Shown here piece after piece: positions 42,118 to 49,695 of a DNA stretch of 64,000 nucleotides. A program made the translations under genes and the position numbers. The notes under the pieces were generated by a model. It had not been told where the DNA came from and ran no database searches. It saw only the letters and a list, made by a program, of their open reading frames with translations. Positions within the stretch are counted from its first letter, which is position 1. Each line of letters starts with the position of its first letter. Source of the DNA: Hymenobacter terrestris (lineage in GTDB: Bacteria; Bacteroidota; Bacteroidia; Cytophagales; Hymenobacteraceae); NCBI RefSeq assembly GCF_013377905.1, contig NZ_JABKAV010000012.1, positions 1 through 64,000 of the forward strand, given 5' to 3'.

Positions 42118-42876
42118 CTATAGTCGCATCGGAATACCATCCTGGCGCAGATGTTCTTTCAGCTCGCGGATACCTATTTCGCCGAAGTGAAATATGCTGG
42201 CGGCCAAACCGGCGTCGGCCTGGGCCTGCTGAAACACGTTGGTGAAGTCCTGCTTGGAGCCGGCCCCGCCCGAGGCGATAACCGGGATGGTTACGGCCCG
42301 GCTTACGGCCCCGGTGATGTCGAGGGCAAAGCCATCCTTGGTGCCGTCGTTGCTCATGGAAGTCAGCAGGATTTCACCTGCCCCCCGGTCGGCGGCCTCG
42401 CGGCACCAGTCCACGGCGTTGCGCCCGGTGTTGTTGGTGCCGGCGCGGGTGTACACCTGCCAGCCGTCGGCGGCGTTATAACGGGCATCGGCGGCCACTA
42501 CAATGCACTGGCTGCCGAAGCGGGCGGCCAATTCGTTGATGAGCTCGGGTCGGGCCAACCCGGCCGAGTTGATGCTCACCTTGTCGGCCCCATTCATCAG
42601 CAGCGCCTCCACATCAGCTATTGACCCAATGCCACCGCCCACCGTGAACGGAATGTCCAGCTCGCGGGCCACGTCGCGCACCAGCGCTATCAGCGTGGCC
42701 CGCTTTTGGTTGGTGGCCGTGATGTCGAGAAACACCAGTTCGTCGGCGCCTTCGCGGGCGTAGCGGGCGGCCAGCGCCACCGGGTCACCGGCGTCGCGCA
42801 GCCCCTCAAATTGCACGCCCTTTACGGTGCGGCCATCCTTAATATCGAGGCAGGGAATGATTCGTTTGGTCAGCAT
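42118..42876 (-). CDS. hisF: Imidazole glycerol phosphate synthase, cyclase subunit
   Basis: The 252-aa TIM-barrel protein has the HisF features: [20 protein letters not shown] with the first catalytic Asp (about residue 11), [31 protein letters not shown], a second catalytic Asp region at GRNAVDWC (about 130), and [10 protein letters not shown]. It works with HisH to form IGP and AICAR. The length is standard. Confidence 0.97.
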
Positions 42877-42943: not shown

Positions 42944-43660
42944 CTACAGCCAGGGCCGCAGTTGCTCCAGCGTAATGGTGCCCTCGTAGATGGCCTTGCC
43001 GATAATAGCCCCGTGCATCCCAATGGCAGCCAGCGCCTCCACATCGGCAATGGTCGTGACGCCCCCACTGGCAATAAGTTCGGCGGCGGGAAGCTGCTGG
43101 CGAAGTTCCGTGTACGTGGCCAACGAAGGTCCCTGAAGCTTACCGTCCTTGCTCACATCGGTGCAAATAAAGGTGGTGGCACCGGCAGTGAGGTAGTTCT
43201 CCACGAACTCGCGTAGGGTCCGCTCGCTTTGCTCGGCCCAGGCATTGATGGAAATGTGGTTGTCGCGGTAGTCGGCCCCGATGATGATGCGGTTGGCTCC
43301 GAACGTAGTCAGCCAGCCGCTAACTGTATCAGGTTCGCGCACGGCAATGCTGCCGGCTGTAATCTGCCGGGCACCCGCGTCGAAGGCGGCGCGCACGGCC
43401 TCCTCGCTCTGCAGGCCGCCACCGAAGTCAATATGCAGGCTGGTATGGCGGGCAATCCGTTCGAGCACCGGCAGGTTCACTGGCTGCTTGGCGCGGGCCC
43501 CATCCAGGTCGACGAGGTGCAGGCGCTTGACGCCGGCGGCTTCGAAACGCTGGGCTACAGCCAGCGGGTCGGAGTCGTAGGTGGTTTGCTGAGAAAAGTC
43601 GCCCTCCGTCAGGCGCACGCACTGGCCGTTGATGAGGTCGATGGCGGGAATGATTTCCAT
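42944..43660 (-). CDS. hisA: Phosphoribosylformimino-AICAR-phosphate isomerase
   Basis: The 238-aa TIM-barrel has EIIPAIDLINGQCVRLTEGD with the catalytic Asp (about residue 8), KRLHLVDLDGARAKQP, IDFGGGLQSEEAV, FICTDVSKDGKLQGP with the second Asp (about 128) and ASGGVTTIADVEAL. It performs step 4 of histidine synthesis by an Amadori rearrangement. Confidence 0.97.
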   Translation of the reverse strand: MEIIPAIDLINGQCVRLTEGDFSQQTTYDSDPLAVAQRFEAAGVKRLHLVDLDGARAKQPVNLPVLERIARHTSLHIDFGGGLQSEEAVRAAFDAGARQITAGSIAVREPDTVSGWLTTFGANRIIIGADYRDNHISINAWAEQSERTLREFVENYLTAGATTFICTDVSKDGKLQGPSLATYTELRQQLPAAELIASGGVTTIADVEALAAIGMHGAIIGKAIYEGTITLEQLRPWL

Positions 43661-43729: not shown

Positions 43730-44323
43730 TTACAGCTTCAGGAAGTTTTCCAGAATGCGGGTGCCTACGGGGCCGCTCTTTTCGGTGTGGAACTGCACGG
43801 CGTAGAAGTTCTCGTGCTGCACCGCGGCACTGAAGGGCGCGGGATATTCGGCTTCAGCAATCGTGTAGTCGCCTACCGGGGCATAATAGCTATGCACGAA
43901 GTACACGAAGTCTGCGGCCTGCAGGCCTTCGAACAACGGGCTGCGCAACTGCTGCAGGTTGTTCCAGCCCATATGCGGGATTTTGTGCTCCGGACCGGCG
44001 GCCGTGAAGCGCACCACATCAAAGGGCAGAATACCCAGCATGTCGGTGCCGCCGCCTTCCTCGGTGTGCCGGCCCAGCAATTGCATACCCAGGCAGATGC
44101 CGAGGAAGGGTTGTGTCAGCGTCGGCAGCAACTCGTGCAGGCCCTGGGCCCGCAACTCCCGCATGGCCGAAGCAGCTTCACCTTCCCCAGGAAACAGCAC
44201 CTTGTCAGCCCGGCGCAGCACGTCGTGGTCGGCCGTGAGGGTGGCCTGCACTCCCAGGCGTTCCAGGGCAAACAGGACCGACTGCACGTTGCCTCCTTTG
44301 TAATCAACTACGGCTATTTCCAT
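43730..44323 (-). CDS. hisH: Imidazole glycerol phosphate synthase, glutaminase subunit
   Basis: The 197-aa class-I glutamine amidotransferase has VVDYKGGNVQSVLFALERLG (about residues 5-24), LFPGEGEAASAM, the nucleophile in FLGICLGMQLLG (Cys about 79), and AVQFHTEKSGPVG with the catalytic His and Glu (about 177-184). It supplies ammonia to HisF. Confidence 0.97.
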   Translation of the reverse strand: MEIAVVDYKGGNVQSVLFALERLGVQATLTADHDVLRRADKVLFPGEGEAASAMRELRAQGLHELLPTLTQPFLGICLGMQLLGRHTEEGGGTDMLGILPFDVVRFTAAGPEHKIPHMGWNNLQQLRSPLFEGLQAADFVYFVHSYYAPVGDYTIAEAEYPAPFSAAVQHENFYAVQFHTEKSGPVGTRILENFLKL

Positions 44324-44511: not shown

Positions 44512-44549
44512 GTAGCATACCCATTTGTTTATACAAATGGGTATGCTAC
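44512..44549. terminator. 17-bp hairpin between hisB and hisH
   Basis: GTAGCATACCCATTTGT (44512-44528) and its complement (44533-44549) flank the 4-base loop TTAT. The arm overlaps the hisB stop by a few bases. On the minus strand it lies between hisB and hisH, so it may weaken or stop read-through inside the operon. The ~220-base gap also contains AT-rich DNA that could carry an internal promoter. Confidence 0.65.
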
Positions 44550-45664
44550 AAAATACCCTTGGTACTCGGTATTTCCATACGGCCCGCATCACGAACCAGC
44601 GCCATTTTGATGGCTTTGGCTACGGCCTTGAATATGGCTTCAATCTTATGGTGCTCGTTCTGCCCCTCGGCTTTAATGTTGAGGTTGCAGCGGGCCGCAT
44701 CGGCGAAGCTCTTGAAGAAATGGTAGAACATTTCGCAGGGCATATCCCCTATTTTCTCCCGCTTGAACTCGGCATCCCACACCAGCCAGGGCCGGCCCGA
44801 GAAGTCGATGGCGGCTTGGGCCAGCACGTCATCCATGGGTAGCAGGAAGCCGTAGCGAGCCAGCCCGCGCTTGTCGCCCAGCGCCTGGTTGAAGGCTTCG
44901 CCCAAGGCAATAGCCGCGTCCTCGATGGTATGGTGTTCGTCGATGTGCAGGTCACCCTGCACATCAATTTTCATATCGACGCCCGAGTGCTTGCTGAGCT
45001 GATCGAGCATGTGGTCGAAGAAGCCCAGGCCGGTATGCATCTGGGGCCGGCCCTGGCCATCGAGGTTGAGCTCAATGCGGATTTTGGTTTCGTTCGTGTC
45101 GCGCTGCACCACGGCGGTGCGGGCGGGGAGACGCAGGAACTGGTAGATTTTCTCCCAGCTCATCGTCGTGAGGGCGGCGCGCTCGTCGCCCCCCTCCCCT
45201 TCCTCCGGCTGCAGCAGGATAGACTGGCAGCCCAGGTTCTGGGCCAACTCCACGTCGGTCAGCCGGTCGCCGATAACGAAAGAGCCCGGCAGGTCGTAGC
45301 CGCTGGCTTCGCCCAGATACTGCTGCAACATGCCGGTGCCCGGCTTGCGGGTGGGCAGGTTGTCGTGGGGGAAGCTCCGGTCGATGTGCTCGCGCACAAA
45401 CTCCACGCCTTCCGAGCGCAGCACGTCGAGCATCATCGTGTGGGCTGGCCAGAAGGTATCTTCCGGATAGCTGGCGGTGCCTAGGCCATCCTGGTTGCTC
45501 ACCAGCACCAGCTCGTAATCCAGCTCGCGGGCAATGCGCGCGAGGCCGCTAATAGCGCCGGGCACAAACTGGAATTTCTCCCGCGTCAGCGCATCTACCT
45601 GAAAATCCGTCGGCGGCTCGATAAGGATGGTCCCGTCGCGGTCGATAAAGAGTACTTTTTTCAT
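44546..45664 (-). CDS. hisB: Bifunctional histidinol-phosphatase / imidazoleglycerol-phosphate dehydratase
   Basis: The 372-aa protein fuses a HAD phosphatase ([15 protein letters not shown] with the D-x-D, about residues 4-18; [30 protein letters not shown]) to an IGP dehydratase domain from about 175. That domain has the metal-binding [17 protein letters not shown] and [20 protein letters not shown]. It performs steps 6 and 8 of histidine synthesis. The fusion is like that of E. coli. Confidence 0.97.
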
Positions 45665-45809: not shown

Positions 45810-46862
45810 TTACTCCGCAAACTCCCCCAGCGCCCACAGCAACTGCTCGTTCTCGGCGGGCGTGCCCACGGTGAGGCGGAGCGTGCCGGCACAGCCGGGC
45901 TGGGTGGTGCGGTTGCGCACGATGATGCCCCGGGCTACCAGGAAATTGTAGAGAGCCGTGGCGTCGGGCCTGAAACGCACCAGCAGGAAGTTGGCATCCG
46001 ACGGAAACACCTCGGCCACGATGTCCAGCGCAGGCAGCCGCTCGGCCAGCCAGTCGCGGCCCACCAGCAACTGCCGGCGCAGCTGCTCGGCGCGGGGCGC
46101 GTCGTGCAGGGCAGCCAGCGCGTGCTGCTGCGTGGCTTCCGACACGTTGTAAGGGGGCTTGATTTTGTTGAGGTACCCGATGACTTCCGGCGAGGCGAAG
46201 GCCATACCCAGCCGCAGACCAGCCAAACCCCAGGCCTTGGAGAAGGTCTGCAGCACCACCAGGTTCGGAAACTCGGCGAGGCGGGTCGTCCAGCTCGGCG
46301 CTTCGGCGAAGTCAGCGTAAGCCTCATCCACCACTACCAGTCCACCGAAACCCCGCAGAATCTGCTCGATGCACTCGGTGTGCAGCAGGTTGCCGGTGGG
46401 GTTGTTGGGCGAGCACAGCCACACCAGCTTCGCCTTCGAAGCCAACACCCCAGCCACGATTTCGGGCGAGAGCTGAAAATCGGCCGTGAGTTGCAGGCGC
46501 TCCACAGTCACGTCGTTCAGGTTGGCGGCCACCTCGTACATGCCGTAAGTGGGCGGCAGGATAAGCAAGCTGTCCTGGCCGGGCACGCAGGTCAGGCGCA
46601 CCAGCAGGTCGATGGCCTCATCGGAACCGTTGCCGAGGAAAATCTGCGCTGGGCTCACTCCTTTTAGCTTCGCCAACTCGGCTTTAACGGCCCGCTGCTG
46701 CGGGTCGGGGTAACGGTTGAACCGCTCGGGGCCGGCGCTGCCGAGGCTGTTCTCGTTGGCGTCGAGCATCACCTGGGCCTCGCCCTGAAATTCGTCGCGG
46801 GCCGAGGAGTAAGGTTTCATGTCCCGCAGGTTGGGCCGCACGAGGCTATCAAGGTTGAACAT
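45810..46862 (-). CDS. hisC: Histidinol-phosphate aminotransferase
   Basis: With the start at 46862 (MFNLDSLVRPNLRDMKPYSS) the product has 350 aa, the standard length. Class-I/II aminotransferase motifs are MLDANENSLGS, FLGNGSDEAIDLLVR, WLCSPNNPTGNLL, VVDEAYADFA and the PLP Lys segment LQTFSKAWGLAGLRLGMA (about residues 206-223). It performs step 7 of histidine synthesis with PLP. Confidence 0.97.
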   Translation of the reverse strand: MFNLDSLVRPNLRDMKPYSSARDEFQGEAQVMLDANENSLGSAGPERFNRYPDPQQRAVKAELAKLKGVSPAQIFLGNGSDEAIDLLVRLTCVPGQDSLLILPPTYGMYEVAANLNDVTVERLQLTADFQLSPEIVAGVLASKAKLVWLCSPNNPTGNLLHTECIEQILRGFGGLVVVDEAYADFAEAPSWTTRLAEFPNLVVLQTFSKAWGLAGLRLGMAFASPEVIGYLNKIKPPYNVSEATQQHALAALHDAPRAEQLRRQLLVGRDWLAERLPALDIVAEVFPSDANFLLVRFRPDATALYNFLVARGIIVRNRTTQPGCAGTLRLTVGTPAENEQLLWALGEFAE

Positions 46863-46967
46863 AAATCTCAGATTTTGCGAATTTTTCAGCTGATTACGCT
46901 GATTCATTATACGGTTGAACGTCATGCTTCATCTGGCGGCGTCCGCTTACCGAAGCACGATTGTCTA
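46863..46967. repeat. Repeat-like sequence between hisC and hisD
   Basis: The gap holds CAGATTTTGCGAATTTTTCAG followed by CTGATTACGCTGATTCATTA. This is a degenerate form of the CAGATTACGCAGATT type of intergenic repeat. A fragment GTCATGCTTC...GAAGCACGA recalls the long hairpin family. Confidence 0.45.
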
Positions 46968-48278
46968 TTACTCCTGCTCCCCGCCGGCCAACGCCTCCAG
47001 CCGGAGCGTGACGGCGCGGGCGTGGGCACGCAGACCCTCGGCTTCGGCCATCGTTTCCACCACGGGCCCCACGTTGCGCAAGCCTTCGGGAGTCAGGCGC
47101 TGGAAGGTAATTTTCTTGAAGAACGAGTCGAGCGAAACACCGCTGTAGTTGCGGGCGTAGCCGTTGGTGGGCAGCGTGTGGTTGGTACCCGAGGCGTAGT
47201 CGCCTACGGCTTCGGGCGTGAGGTGGCCCAGAAACACCGAACCGGCGTTGGTGACGCCCGCGGCCAGCGGCTCGGGGTTTTCCACAGCCAGAATCAAGTG
47301 TTCCGGGGCGTACTCGTTCGAGAAATCCAGCATTTCCTGGGCATCGCGCAGCAGAATGGCCCGGCTTTCCGTCAGGGCCTGAGCGGCCACTTCGGCCCGG
47401 GGCAGTTCGCGCAGCTGGCGTTCCACTTCGGCTTTGGTTTGCTCCAGTATATATAAGGAGTCGGAGAGCAGAATAACCTGCGAATCGGGTCCGTGCTCGG
47501 CCTGGCTGAGCAGGTCGGCCGCCACGAAGGCGGGATTAGCTGAGGCGTCGGCCATCACCAGCACTTCCGAGGGACCAGCCGGCATATCAATGGCCACGCC
47601 GTAGCGGGTGGACAGTTGCTTGGCGGCCGTTACGTAACGGTTGCCGGGACCGAAAATCTTGTCTACGGCCGGCACCGATTCGGTACCACCGCTGAGCGCA
47701 GCCACGGCTTGGGCTCCGCCGGCTTTTACTATCGTATCAATACCGAGCAGCTGGGCCGTGAACAGGATAACCGGGTTCACCGCGCCATCCTTCTGGGGCG
47801 GCGTGCAAAGCACAATGTTCGGGCAGCCCGCCAGCTTAGCCGGCACGCCCAGCATCAGCAGCGTACTAAACAGCGGCGCCGTGCCGCCCGGAATGTAGAG
47901 GCCTACCCGCTGCACAGGCACCGCCCGCCGCCAGCAGAGTACGCCCGGCATGGTTTCTACCCGCTCCTCAGCTGGCACCTGGGCTTCGTGGAAGCGCAGA
48001 ATATTGGCGTGAGCCTGCCGGATGGCCGCCTGGAGCGCGGCCGGAACCTGGGCTTCGGCGGCGGCCAGCTCCTGGGCCGAAACGCGCAGACCGCCCGCGG
48101 CAGGCAAATCGGCCCCATCGAACTGTTGGGCATAATCGAGCAGGGCCGCGTCGCCGCGTTGGCGCACGTCCTCAAAAATCTGCTGCACGCGCTGGGCTAC
48201 ATCGGCGCCCTGCTGCTGGGCTGCCCGCTGCTGCAACCCGGCCCACTCTGCCCGCAAAGGATATTGAATGAGATTCAT
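46968..48278 (-). CDS. hisD: Histidinol dehydrogenase
   Basis: The 436-aa protein has the HisD features: a WRRAVPVQRVGLYIPGGTAP segment (about residues 109-128), GGAQAVAALSGGTESVP, DKIFGPGNRYVTAAK, IDMPAGPSEVLVMADASANP, LLSQAEHGPDSQ (zinc-site Gln and His) and the C-terminal HTLPTNGYARNYSGVS. It performs the last two oxidations to histidine with NAD and zinc. All sites look intact. Confidence 0.97.
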   Translation of the reverse strand: MNLIQYPLRAEWAGLQQRAAQQQGADVAQRVQQIFEDVRQRGDAALLDYAQQFDGADLPAAGGLRVSAQELAAAEAQVPAALQAAIRQAHANILRFHEAQVPAEERVETMPGVLCWRRAVPVQRVGLYIPGGTAPLFSTLLMLGVPAKLAGCPNIVLCTPPQKDGAVNPVILFTAQLLGIDTIVKAGGAQAVAALSGGTESVPAVDKIFGPGNRYVTAAKQLSTRYGVAIDMPAGPSEVLVMADASANPAFVAADLLSQAEHGPDSQVILLSDSLYILEQTKAEVERQLRELPRAEVAAQALTESRAILLRDAQEMLDFSNEYAPEHLILAVENPEPLAAGVTNAGSVFLGHLTPEAVGDYASGTNHTLPTNGYARNYSGVSLDSFFKKITFQRLTPEGLRNVGPVVETMAEAEGLRAHARAVTLRLEALAGGEQE

Positions 48279-48367: not shown

Positions 48368-49219
48368 TCAGGAAATCATTTTCTCAATCGGGAGAACCAG
48401 GATGCCTTCGGCGCCGACGGCCTTGAGCTGGCTGGTAATATGCCAGAAATCGTCCTCGTTTACCACCGACTGCACCGACACCCAGCCTTCTTCGGCCAGC
48501 GGGGTAATGGTGGGCGACTTAATACCGGGCAGCAATTGCTTCACTGCATCCAGGGCCGCGACGGGCGCGTTCAGTATGATGTACTTGTTGCGGCGGGCGC
48601 GGCGCACGGCCTGCATCCGAAACATCAGCTGCTCGAGCAACTCCTTCTTCTCGGCGTTCAGGTTTTGGTTGGCGATGAGCACGGCTTCGGAGCGGAACAC
48701 GGTTTCCACTTCCCGCAGACCGTTGCCAAGCAGCGTCGAGCCACTGCTCACGATGTCGCAGATGGCCTCGGCCAGCCCGATGCTGGGGGCAATTTCCACC
48801 GAGCCGCTGATGGTGTGCAGGTGGGCCTGCACGCCCTGCCCGGCCAGATAATCGCCCAGGATTTTAGGGTACGAGGTGGCAATGCTCACGCCCTGCAGAC
48901 TATGGATGGAGTCGTAAGCAGCGGCGCGGGGCACGGCCAGGCTCAGGCGGCACTTGCTGAAACCCAGGCCTTCCACTTCCAGCTCCGGAAAGCCGGCCTC
49001 TACCAGCACGTTCTGGCCCACAATACCCAGATCGGCCACGCCGTCCTGCACATAACCGGGAATGTCGTCGTCGCGCAGGTACAGGATTTCGAGCGGGAAG
49101 TTGGTGGCTTCGGTTTTGAGCTTGTTGGAAGCCGCGAGGAAGCTGATACCGCACTCCCGAATCAGGTTCAGGGAGTCTTCGCTTAAGCGGCCGGATTTCT
49201 GGATAGCCAGACGGAGCAT
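48368..49219 (-). CDS. hisG: ATP phosphoribosyltransferase (long form)
   Basis: The 283-aa protein is of the long HisG type. The catalytic domains contain LRLAIQKSGRLSEDSLNLIR, DLGIVGQNVLVEAG and ATSYPKILGDYLAG, with the phosphate-loop region SGSVEIAPSIGLAEAICDIVSSGSTL split across residues about 137-162. The C-terminal ACT-like regulatory domain (about 208-283) allows histidine feedback, so HisZ is not needed. It performs step 1 of the pathway and is the first gene of the operon. Confidence 0.96.
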   Translation of the reverse strand: MLRLAIQKSGRLSEDSLNLIRECGISFLAASNKLKTEATNFPLEILYLRDDDIPGYVQDGVADLGIVGQNVLVEAGFPELEVEGLGFSKCRLSLAVPRAAAYDSIHSLQGVSIATSYPKILGDYLAGQGVQAHLHTISGSVEIAPSIGLAEAICDIVSSGSTLLGNGLREVETVFRSEAVLIANQNLNAEKKELLEQLMFRMQAVRRARRNKYIILNAPVAALDAVKQLLPGIKSPTITPLAEEGWVSVQSVVNEDDFWHITSQLKAVGAEGILVLPIEKMIS

Positions 49220-49380
49220 TCTTTTTGTATTAAGTAGTAAGAATCAGGAACTGGCCATTCGGGCTCAATTGACGATTCGAGAAGATTTGACGGCTGGCCC
49301 GATTGGCCGAAACGGCGGTGGGCATGTTCTGAAGAAAGAGGCAGGGCGACCCATAACGGTTGGCGATGGTCAGAAGCCGG

Positions 49381-49412
49381 CCGGACCCCCGTTTTTCCGG
49401 GGGCCGGGGAGC
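49381..49412 (-). terminator. Attenuator-type hairpin between leader peptide and hisG
   Basis: On the minus strand CCCCGGCCCCCGGAAAAACG and GGGGTCCGG form a GC-rich stem with the loop GAAAAA-like, about 45 to 75 bases after the leader stop. It is the most stable hairpin between the leader and hisG and could be the terminator of an attenuator. A long U-run is not evident, so the mode of termination is uncertain. Confidence 0.5.
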
Positions 49413-49456
49413 CTGATACGGCTCGCCCAACGGGTCAATATGATGCGTTCATTCCT

Positions 49457-49585
49457 CTAGAAAGAGGAATGGTACCCGTGATGATGCCAAGTGGCAGACT
49501 CAGACGCGCCGGCCCCGGCCGGGCGGCCCGCTACGGGGGCAGCCGGGTGGCTTAGGGCAGTAAAACGAGGCGCGGAGAAAATCAT
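49457..49585 (-). CDS. his operon leader peptide
   Basis: The 42-codon minus-strand frame ends ATWHHHGYHSSF then stop. It has four His codons within six residues, about 7 codons before its end, and a further His earlier. The ATG at 49585 lies 18 bases after a perfect TACATTTG box, so the frame is first on the transcript. It lies about 240 bases upstream of hisG, with a GC-rich hairpin in between. This is the classic layout of a his attenuator: ribosomes stall at His codons when charged tRNA-His is scarce. Leader control of his in Bacteroidetes is plausible from general knowledge, but I infer it here from sequence alone. Confidence 0.75.
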   Translation of the reverse strand: MIFSAPRFTALSHPAAPVAGRPAGAGASESATWHHHGYHSSF

Positions 49586-49603
49586 AAGGGCTAAGTAGCG
49601 GGG

Positions 49604-49611
49604 CAAATGTA
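49604..49611 (-). promoter_or_regulatory. TACATTTG -7 box of the his operon
   Basis: On the minus strand TACATTTG matches TAnnTTTG exactly. The start site would lie near 49597, giving a leader of about a dozen bases before the leader-peptide ATG. The -33 region is weak (a GTTTTC lies about 18 bases upstream). Confidence 0.6.
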
Positions 49612-49695
49612 CGAGCAGACCAATAGGATGAAAACTTTTCCCCAAAAAAATTATCAAAAAACCGGGAACTTCACGTTTCCTGTAACAGGTCGACC

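Follow-up and report, generated by a model that had tools for sequence, protein, structure and literature searches.

Leader-peptide control of amino-acid operons is a textbook case of the Proteobacteria. Among the closest described counterparts of the element reported here is the his operon attenuator of enterobacteria (hisL; Rfam His_leader, RF00514), where a short leader with a run of histidine codons stands before hisG, with a hairpin near the leader end and further hairpins downstream, as found here. Bacteroid-trp RNA lies upstream of trp genes and includes a Trp leader peptide. It was listed as a candidate structured RNA of Bacteroidetes in the cited part of its source (RF01692, PMC2864571), concerns a different amino acid and gave no match at gathering score in the present locus.

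Leader peptides had previously been known in Proteobacteria and Actinobacteria only, according to the passages cited from a survey that added the bacilli and selected for intrinsic terminators (PMC2965389). The bacilli His leader peptides of that survey are short open reading frames (ORFs) with a His-codon run outside the Proteobacteria, lying before other genes (hisS/hisZ) and in another phylum than the leaders described here. In the Rho-acting leader peptides (tnaC; Salmonella speF, PMC6386406; E. coli toiL, PMC12121999), as summarized in the cited excerpts, the position of the ribosome sets a Rho- or hairpin-dependent fate, and tryptophan, arginine/ornithine or ribosome drugs are sensed, not histidine.

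Within the Bacteroidota, structured 5' elements before hisG were reported in Flavobacteriaceae, along with strong hints that amino-acid operons are preceded by leader-peptide attenuators (PMC9723704). That element is, like the present one, a conserved structured 5' region of the same phylum outside Rfam, and is likened here by description only, the cited passages dealing with flavobacteria and giving no His leader, sequence or mechanism. With this flavobacterial hisG leader already published, part of the present finding may be known. Leader-peptide-like small ORFs were mentioned in Bacteroides, without histidine in the cited excerpt (PMC7366714), and a study of his genes in Bacteroidota made no mention of a leader in its cited parts (PMC8305728). 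Searches of open-licence papers turned up no account of a His leader peptide from the Bacteroidota.

The window analyzed here is the whole stretch of 64,000 nucleotides from Hymenobacter terrestris (contig NZ_JABKAV010000012.1, positions 1 to 64,000). Unlike hisL, the leader type of its clade displayed neither a U-tract terminator nor a detected antiterminator, its hairpin included the stop codon, and it had no match in Rfam at gathering score.

Organization of the his locus

All features described below were located on the minus strand of the window. The gene hisG (48368-49219), coding for the long form of ATP phosphoribosyltransferase (TIGR00070 and TIGR03455, above cut-off), was the first gene of a complete hisGDCBHAF operon as assigned by NCBIfam matches, together with hisD (46968-48278, TIGR00069), hisC (45810-46925, TIGR01141), bifunctional hisB (44546-45664, NF003937), hisH (43730-44323, TIGR01855), hisA (42944-43660, TIGR00007) and hisF (42118-42876, TIGR00735). 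The same hisG was present in 119 of the 120 genomes searched in the genus. In three genomes of the genus (G061, G062 and G112), hisG matches were split over several frames, which may reflect frameshifts, decay or assembly errors.

Upstream of hisG, a putative promoter box TACATTTG (49604-49611) of the TAnnTTTG type of Bacteroidota was separated by 18 nt from the ATG (49585-49583) of a 42-codon leader ORF (49457-49585; MIFSAPRFTALSHPAAPVAGRPAGAGASESATWHHHGYHSSF) closed by TAG (49459-49457). The predicted peptide ended in WHHHGYHSSF, with a His-codon region CAT CAT CAC GGG TAC CAT at 49469-49486. Box, gap and frame were all found where the preliminary description of this DNA had placed them. It had also described a GC-rich hairpin followed by hisG; the hairpin (P3 below) was indeed present at 49407-49381, but hisG began 161 nt further on rather than adjoining it, and the most conserved hairpin of the region, P1 at 49471-49450, had been left out. 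The leader stop and the hisG start were 237 nt apart on the same strand, with no other gene between them, and the 381-nt leader region folded better than 100 of 100 shuffles (z -3.1).

The position of the box before the leader recurred in the genus: of 79 Hymenobacter loci, 76 carried TAnnTTTG no more than 60 nt before an in-frame ATG of the leader (56/1580 in shuffles), and a single one carried it between leader and hisG (1/79). In Rufibacter, Pontibacter and Adhaeribacter (L084-L110, L120, L121), the box was found between leader and hisG in 8 of 28 loci compared to 29 of 560 shuffles, an excess by which there may be a second promoter in these genera.

The leader ORF and its histidine codons

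Leaders were compared in 107 distinct Hymenobacteraceae hisG loci from Hymenobacter, Rufibacter, Pontibacter and Adhaeribacter. As the locus sets L001-L030 and L031-L110 share genomes, distinct loci were counted, distinctness being defined on the last 300 upstream bases. A leader was considered His-rich when an ATG ORF upstream of hisG carried at least three His within 8 residues. Such an ORF was present at all 107 loci, compared to 1/107 on the opposite strand and 46/2140 dinucleotide shuffles, and a stricter rule (at least four His in 8) retained 106 of 107 loci, none antisense and 2/2140 shuffles. When clusters of at least four identical residues in 8 were counted for each of the 20 residues over 249 distinct loci, His came first (165) and Ala next (59). 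The conserved His codons that the preliminary description had proposed to look for in related species, and whose lack there it would have taken as a refutation, were thus kept throughout the family, and the short, predicted-translated ORF with tandem His codons that precedes the his operon in a classical His attenuator was found at every locus. The leader had also been called longer than its proteobacterial counterparts; 42 codons holds for Hymenobacter, while many class-level leaders had about 14-20 codons.

The N-terminal two thirds of the peptide were free to vary and the C-terminus was conserved. Among 73 leaders ending in HSS or HSSF, His occupied positions -9, -6, -4 and -3 in 57, 70, 68 and 73 leaders, respectively. 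Between -10 and -4, CAT and CAC interchanged while the residue stayed, which argues that the His residue is under selection there. At -3 and -2, inside P1, the codons CAT and TCC themselves were fixed (73/73), and selection therefore appeared to act on the RNA. As judged from the comparison of sequences, the His leader is a real feature of this locus and of its relatives, and translation of the leader frame was shown by comparison to be under selection for His.

A hairpin over the leader stop codon

Hairpin P1 (CATTCCTCT-TTCT-AGAGGAATG, 49450-49471) covered the last His codon and the stop of the leader, the former opening its 5' arm and the latter lying in the loop or in the 3' arm. The His codons began five codons before it. 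In the enterobacterial his leader, a pause hairpin lies at about the same place. P1 exceeded shuffles (p ≤ 0.05) in 56 of 57 leaders of Hymenobacter clade A, to which the window belongs, and in 26 of 28 Rufibacter, Pontibacter and Adhaeribacter leaders, compared to only 2 of 52 leaders of the terminator type (type I, described below); in clade B, a local stem at the stop surpassed shuffles in 1 of 12 leaders only. The letters of P1 were nearly fixed in Hymenobacter (ATTCCTC/GAGGAAT), and stems at the same position in other families were complementary with other letters (GGCTCTC/GAGAGCC, ATCTCTC/GAGAGAT, ATCGCC/GGCGAT). A transcription factor operator was rejected for P1, as its loop ranged from 4 to 8 nt, its arms remained complementary and other families used other letters.

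In the window, P1 was followed at a fixed distance on its 3' side by CATATTG (49436-49442), which corresponded to near-invariant columns among 52 sequences. The GAGGAA-type arm and the YATA motif were both located in 80 of 90 leaders; the distance from the first to the second was 9 nt in 71 of the 80, and the intervening letters varied. Clades B and C were devoid of the motif (CATAT in 0/22). Selection on P1 as RNA, and a fixed distance between P1 and YATA, were hence shown by comparison of the leaders. Among the class-level loci, the His leaders of one family (f58, L258-L261) also had their last His codons and the stop covered by a hairpin, with ATCGCC/GGCGAT in three of four; some of these carried a weak A/T-rich hairpin and then a T-run, which escapes the terminator filter given below.

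Pairing of the P1 3' arm with an alternative downstream partner was detected (p ≤ 0.05) in 3 of 104 leaders, which is not above chance (116 candidate leaders minus 12 without a recognised arm), so that a terminator/antiterminator switch was not visible in the leaders of the window's type. The alternative antiterminator pairing that the preliminary description had put forward as a check was accordingly not recovered for the leader-tail hairpin. A role of the P1 3' arm as the 5' arm of a terminator was rejected, being supported only in the same three leaders by test (L109 and L044 at p ≤ 0.02) and by eye in two Adhaeribacter loci (L089 and L109), where it can pair with a downstream ATTATTCCTC followed by T. 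Two other candidates for downstream pairing, the His codons (8/104 at p ≤ 0.05) and the linker (2/104), were at chance level.

Leader architectures across the Bacteroidota

His-rich ORFs with any start codon were found at 59 of 66 class-level hisG loci, a count that includes one locus (L150) from the order of the window. At the other loci of this order, a His-rich ORF was present in 17 of 76 and missing by this rule in 59, which marks a genuine gap, and in the phylum it was present at 10 of 20 loci, picked over families and counted without shuffle control. In unrelated short leader peptides of the class, the His run was the only shared feature.

Two main architectures were distinguished. In type I, a short leader was followed by a canonical terminator, defined as a hairpin of -12 kcal/mol or better with 5 or more T in the next 8 nt; 48 of the 59 class-level leaders had one, compared to 14 of 2360 shuffles. 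In 36 of 52 terminator-bearing leaders (median p 0.01), a strand between the His codons and the terminator paired with the terminator 5' arm beyond 95% of shuffles, as an antiterminator does. Type I leaders look like textbook attenuators in their sequences. In type II, that of the window, the P1 hairpin at the last His codon and stop stood in place of a consistent terminator.

The strand that follows the His codons paired with one 45-60 nt downstream in Hymenobacter clades B and C (220 of 220 cells paired in 22 sequences), with 9 double-change cells compared to 2.1 in shuffles, although only 5 of 22 duplexes were significant when tested singly (p ≤ 0.05). With P1, this distant helix and the type I antiterminator, the strand right after the His run was the pairing strand in each architecture. 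Clade C (L073-L081, L116, L118) displayed a terminator-like site in 9 of 10 leaders (31% in shuffles), four of them directly before hisG. These four could be either a terminator or a hairpin hiding the hisG start. By comparison only, histidine leaders appear to be long established and widespread in the Bacteroidota, in two or more architectures, of which the terminator type offers ready test systems within the phylum. Among the phylum-level loci, three leaders of one family (f95; L295, L296, L299) were without a strong terminator; two of the three carried runs of the HHxHHGHH type.

A search of 143 genomes of the order under strict filters, with an RNA model based on 52 leaders of type II, gave 20 hits, each in a different genome and each directly upstream of hisG; several of the 20 matched loci were also in the model. 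At gathering score, Rfam release 15, with His_leader among its families, returned one tRNA only for the window and nothing for 13 loci. Over positions 49200-49650, it gave two matches on the opposite strand, both below threshold and attributed to chance, and at E ≤ 1 only an unrelated one (0.95), also on that strand.

Downstream hairpins and the lack of a consistent intrinsic terminator

Two further hairpins followed P1 in the window, P2 (GGGCGAGCC-GTATCA-GGCTCCCC, 49406-49428) and the GC-rich P3 (CCGGCCCCCG-GAAAAA-CGGGGGTCCGG, 49381-49407), whose two outer C overlap P2. Over 51 sequences and 1066 cells, the P1-P2-P3 pairing was kept in 97.6%, and both sides had changed in 34 cells compared to 8.7 in shuffles. 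P2 was paired in 95.2% of cells, with changes on both sides in four of seven pairs, and P3 in 98.7%, with such changes in two of six pairs. A second switch (C1:C2 versus C2:C3, i.e., CCCC-GTT-GGGG against P2) was suggested by eye in several families, but C1 and C2 hardly varied and offered no covariation in its support.

P3 was not followed by a U-tract. The 8 nt counted from its end, or from two and four columns later, contained on average 0.7, 1.7 and 3.0 T, and at least 5 T in 0, 0 and 5 of 51 sequences, respectively, compared to a mean of 6.2 T in type I leaders. A stretch of 8 nt with 5 T, starting at most 12 nt from P3, was found in 8 of 51 clade-A sequences. Between leader and hisG, terminator-like sites occurred in 11 of 57 clade-A leaders, scattered in position and about twice as frequent as in shuffles (226/2280), so that the intrinsic terminator of a classical attenuator was missing as a consistent feature of this clade. 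The family-wide count (26/107, compared to 123/1070 in shuffles) masks differences between clades.

It is possible, though unlikely, that the locus is a His attenuator of the usual kind whose intrinsic terminator has degenerated, and in which P3, a short hairpin after it or one before hisG would terminate despite a poor U-tract, P1 and P2 being the usual pausing and antiterminator parts. The stability and covariation of P3, the few clade-A relatives that are T-rich near it (such as L003, L007 and L054), the canonical terminators of class-level leaders and the downstream pairing in L089 and L109 are all consistent with it, and given the clade-C sites and the twofold excess in clade A, a terminator may exist in parts of the genus. 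However, 5 T at the end of P3 occurred in none of the 51 clade-A sequences, the clade-A terminator-like sites lay at differing places, and clear U-tract terminators did follow other genes of the window (8/52, compared to 14/520 in shuffles). The "same logic" as proteobacterial attenuation, claimed in the preliminary description, was hence not recovered in the window's clade, where neither a consistent terminator nor an antiterminator above chance was found; what stood of the attenuation reading was the conserved His leader, the box upstream and the complete his operon.

Proposed control of transcription

On balance, we favor a ribosome-sensing His leader that controls transcription of hisGDCBHAF and is gated at elongation via P1. 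The cell probably reads histidine supply by ribosome stalling, since a His leader precedes hisG in every close relative examined, and this sensing step is well supported by the comparison. Under scarcity of His-tRNA, the ribosome would wait at the first His codons, so that P1 could fold; with ample histidine, it would reach the stop and open P1. Folded P1, with the spaced YATA motif, would act on RNA polymerase as a pause or antitermination signal, as a hairpin pause needs a fixed distance between hairpin and motif; the E. coli his pause is the comparison case. The polymerase would then either continue into hisG or be removed within the leader, in which case a factor such as Rho is a likelier agent than a U-tract terminator. 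A ribosome halted at the first His codon would leave P1 exposed, and one halted at the last two would cover it. P1 could therefore act in either direction, and the direction proposed here, like the output step, is not well supported.

The tract between P3 and hisG (49220-49380) is a candidate Rho-binding region. C-rich, G-poor tracts are typical Rho sites, and in clade A this tract had mean C and G fractions of 0.32 and 0.16. The C content reached 1.5 times that of G or more in 46 of 51 clade-A sequences, compared to 6 of 38 upstream regions elsewhere in the window and 7 of 52 type I leaders; the bias was weak in clades B, C and other leaders (4/28) and in Rufibacter, Pontibacter and Adhaeribacter (13/28). 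Only clade A thus displayed before the gene the C-rich, G-poor tract of a Rho-dependent leader attenuator, a feature which, with the absence of a U-tract, it would share with the Rho-acting leader peptides.

A more specific and rather doubtful version would hold for Hymenobacteraceae and some other Bacteroidota families: P1, as one ribosome-gated hairpin, would replace the switch, a pause or antitermination state would be set near YATATYG, and Rho would terminate in the C-rich tract. P1, comprising the last His codon and the stop, would form in the RNA exit channel at a fixed distance from YATATYG. If true, histidine attenuation would operate here with no intrinsic terminator.

Control could instead be exerted on translation, the leader ribosome altering how accessible the hisG start is or whether ribosomes reinitiate there. 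In other systems, ribosomes that terminate are able to restart further downstream, and leader and hisG are uninterrupted neighbors on one strand. Reinitiation in Bacteroidetes was however reported at 11-14 bp in the cited passage (PMC4833913), far below the distance from leader stop to hisG, which makes translational control improbable. A small His-rich peptide with its own function, e.g., metal binding, unrelated to his control, would account for the conserved C-terminus but is very improbable given the freely varying N-terminal part, the terminal codons fixed at the RNA level, the occurrence of the element once per genome and solely before hisG (20/20), and unrelated class-level peptides sharing just the His run.

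Under the favored elongation control via P1, the Hymenobacter type poses the question of how a stalled ribosome controls transcription with no intrinsic terminator to prevent. Rho was encoded in the genome; at L284 (G000:C99:5842-8001), it was found in an open frame of 790 aa, the family model having only 415 positions.
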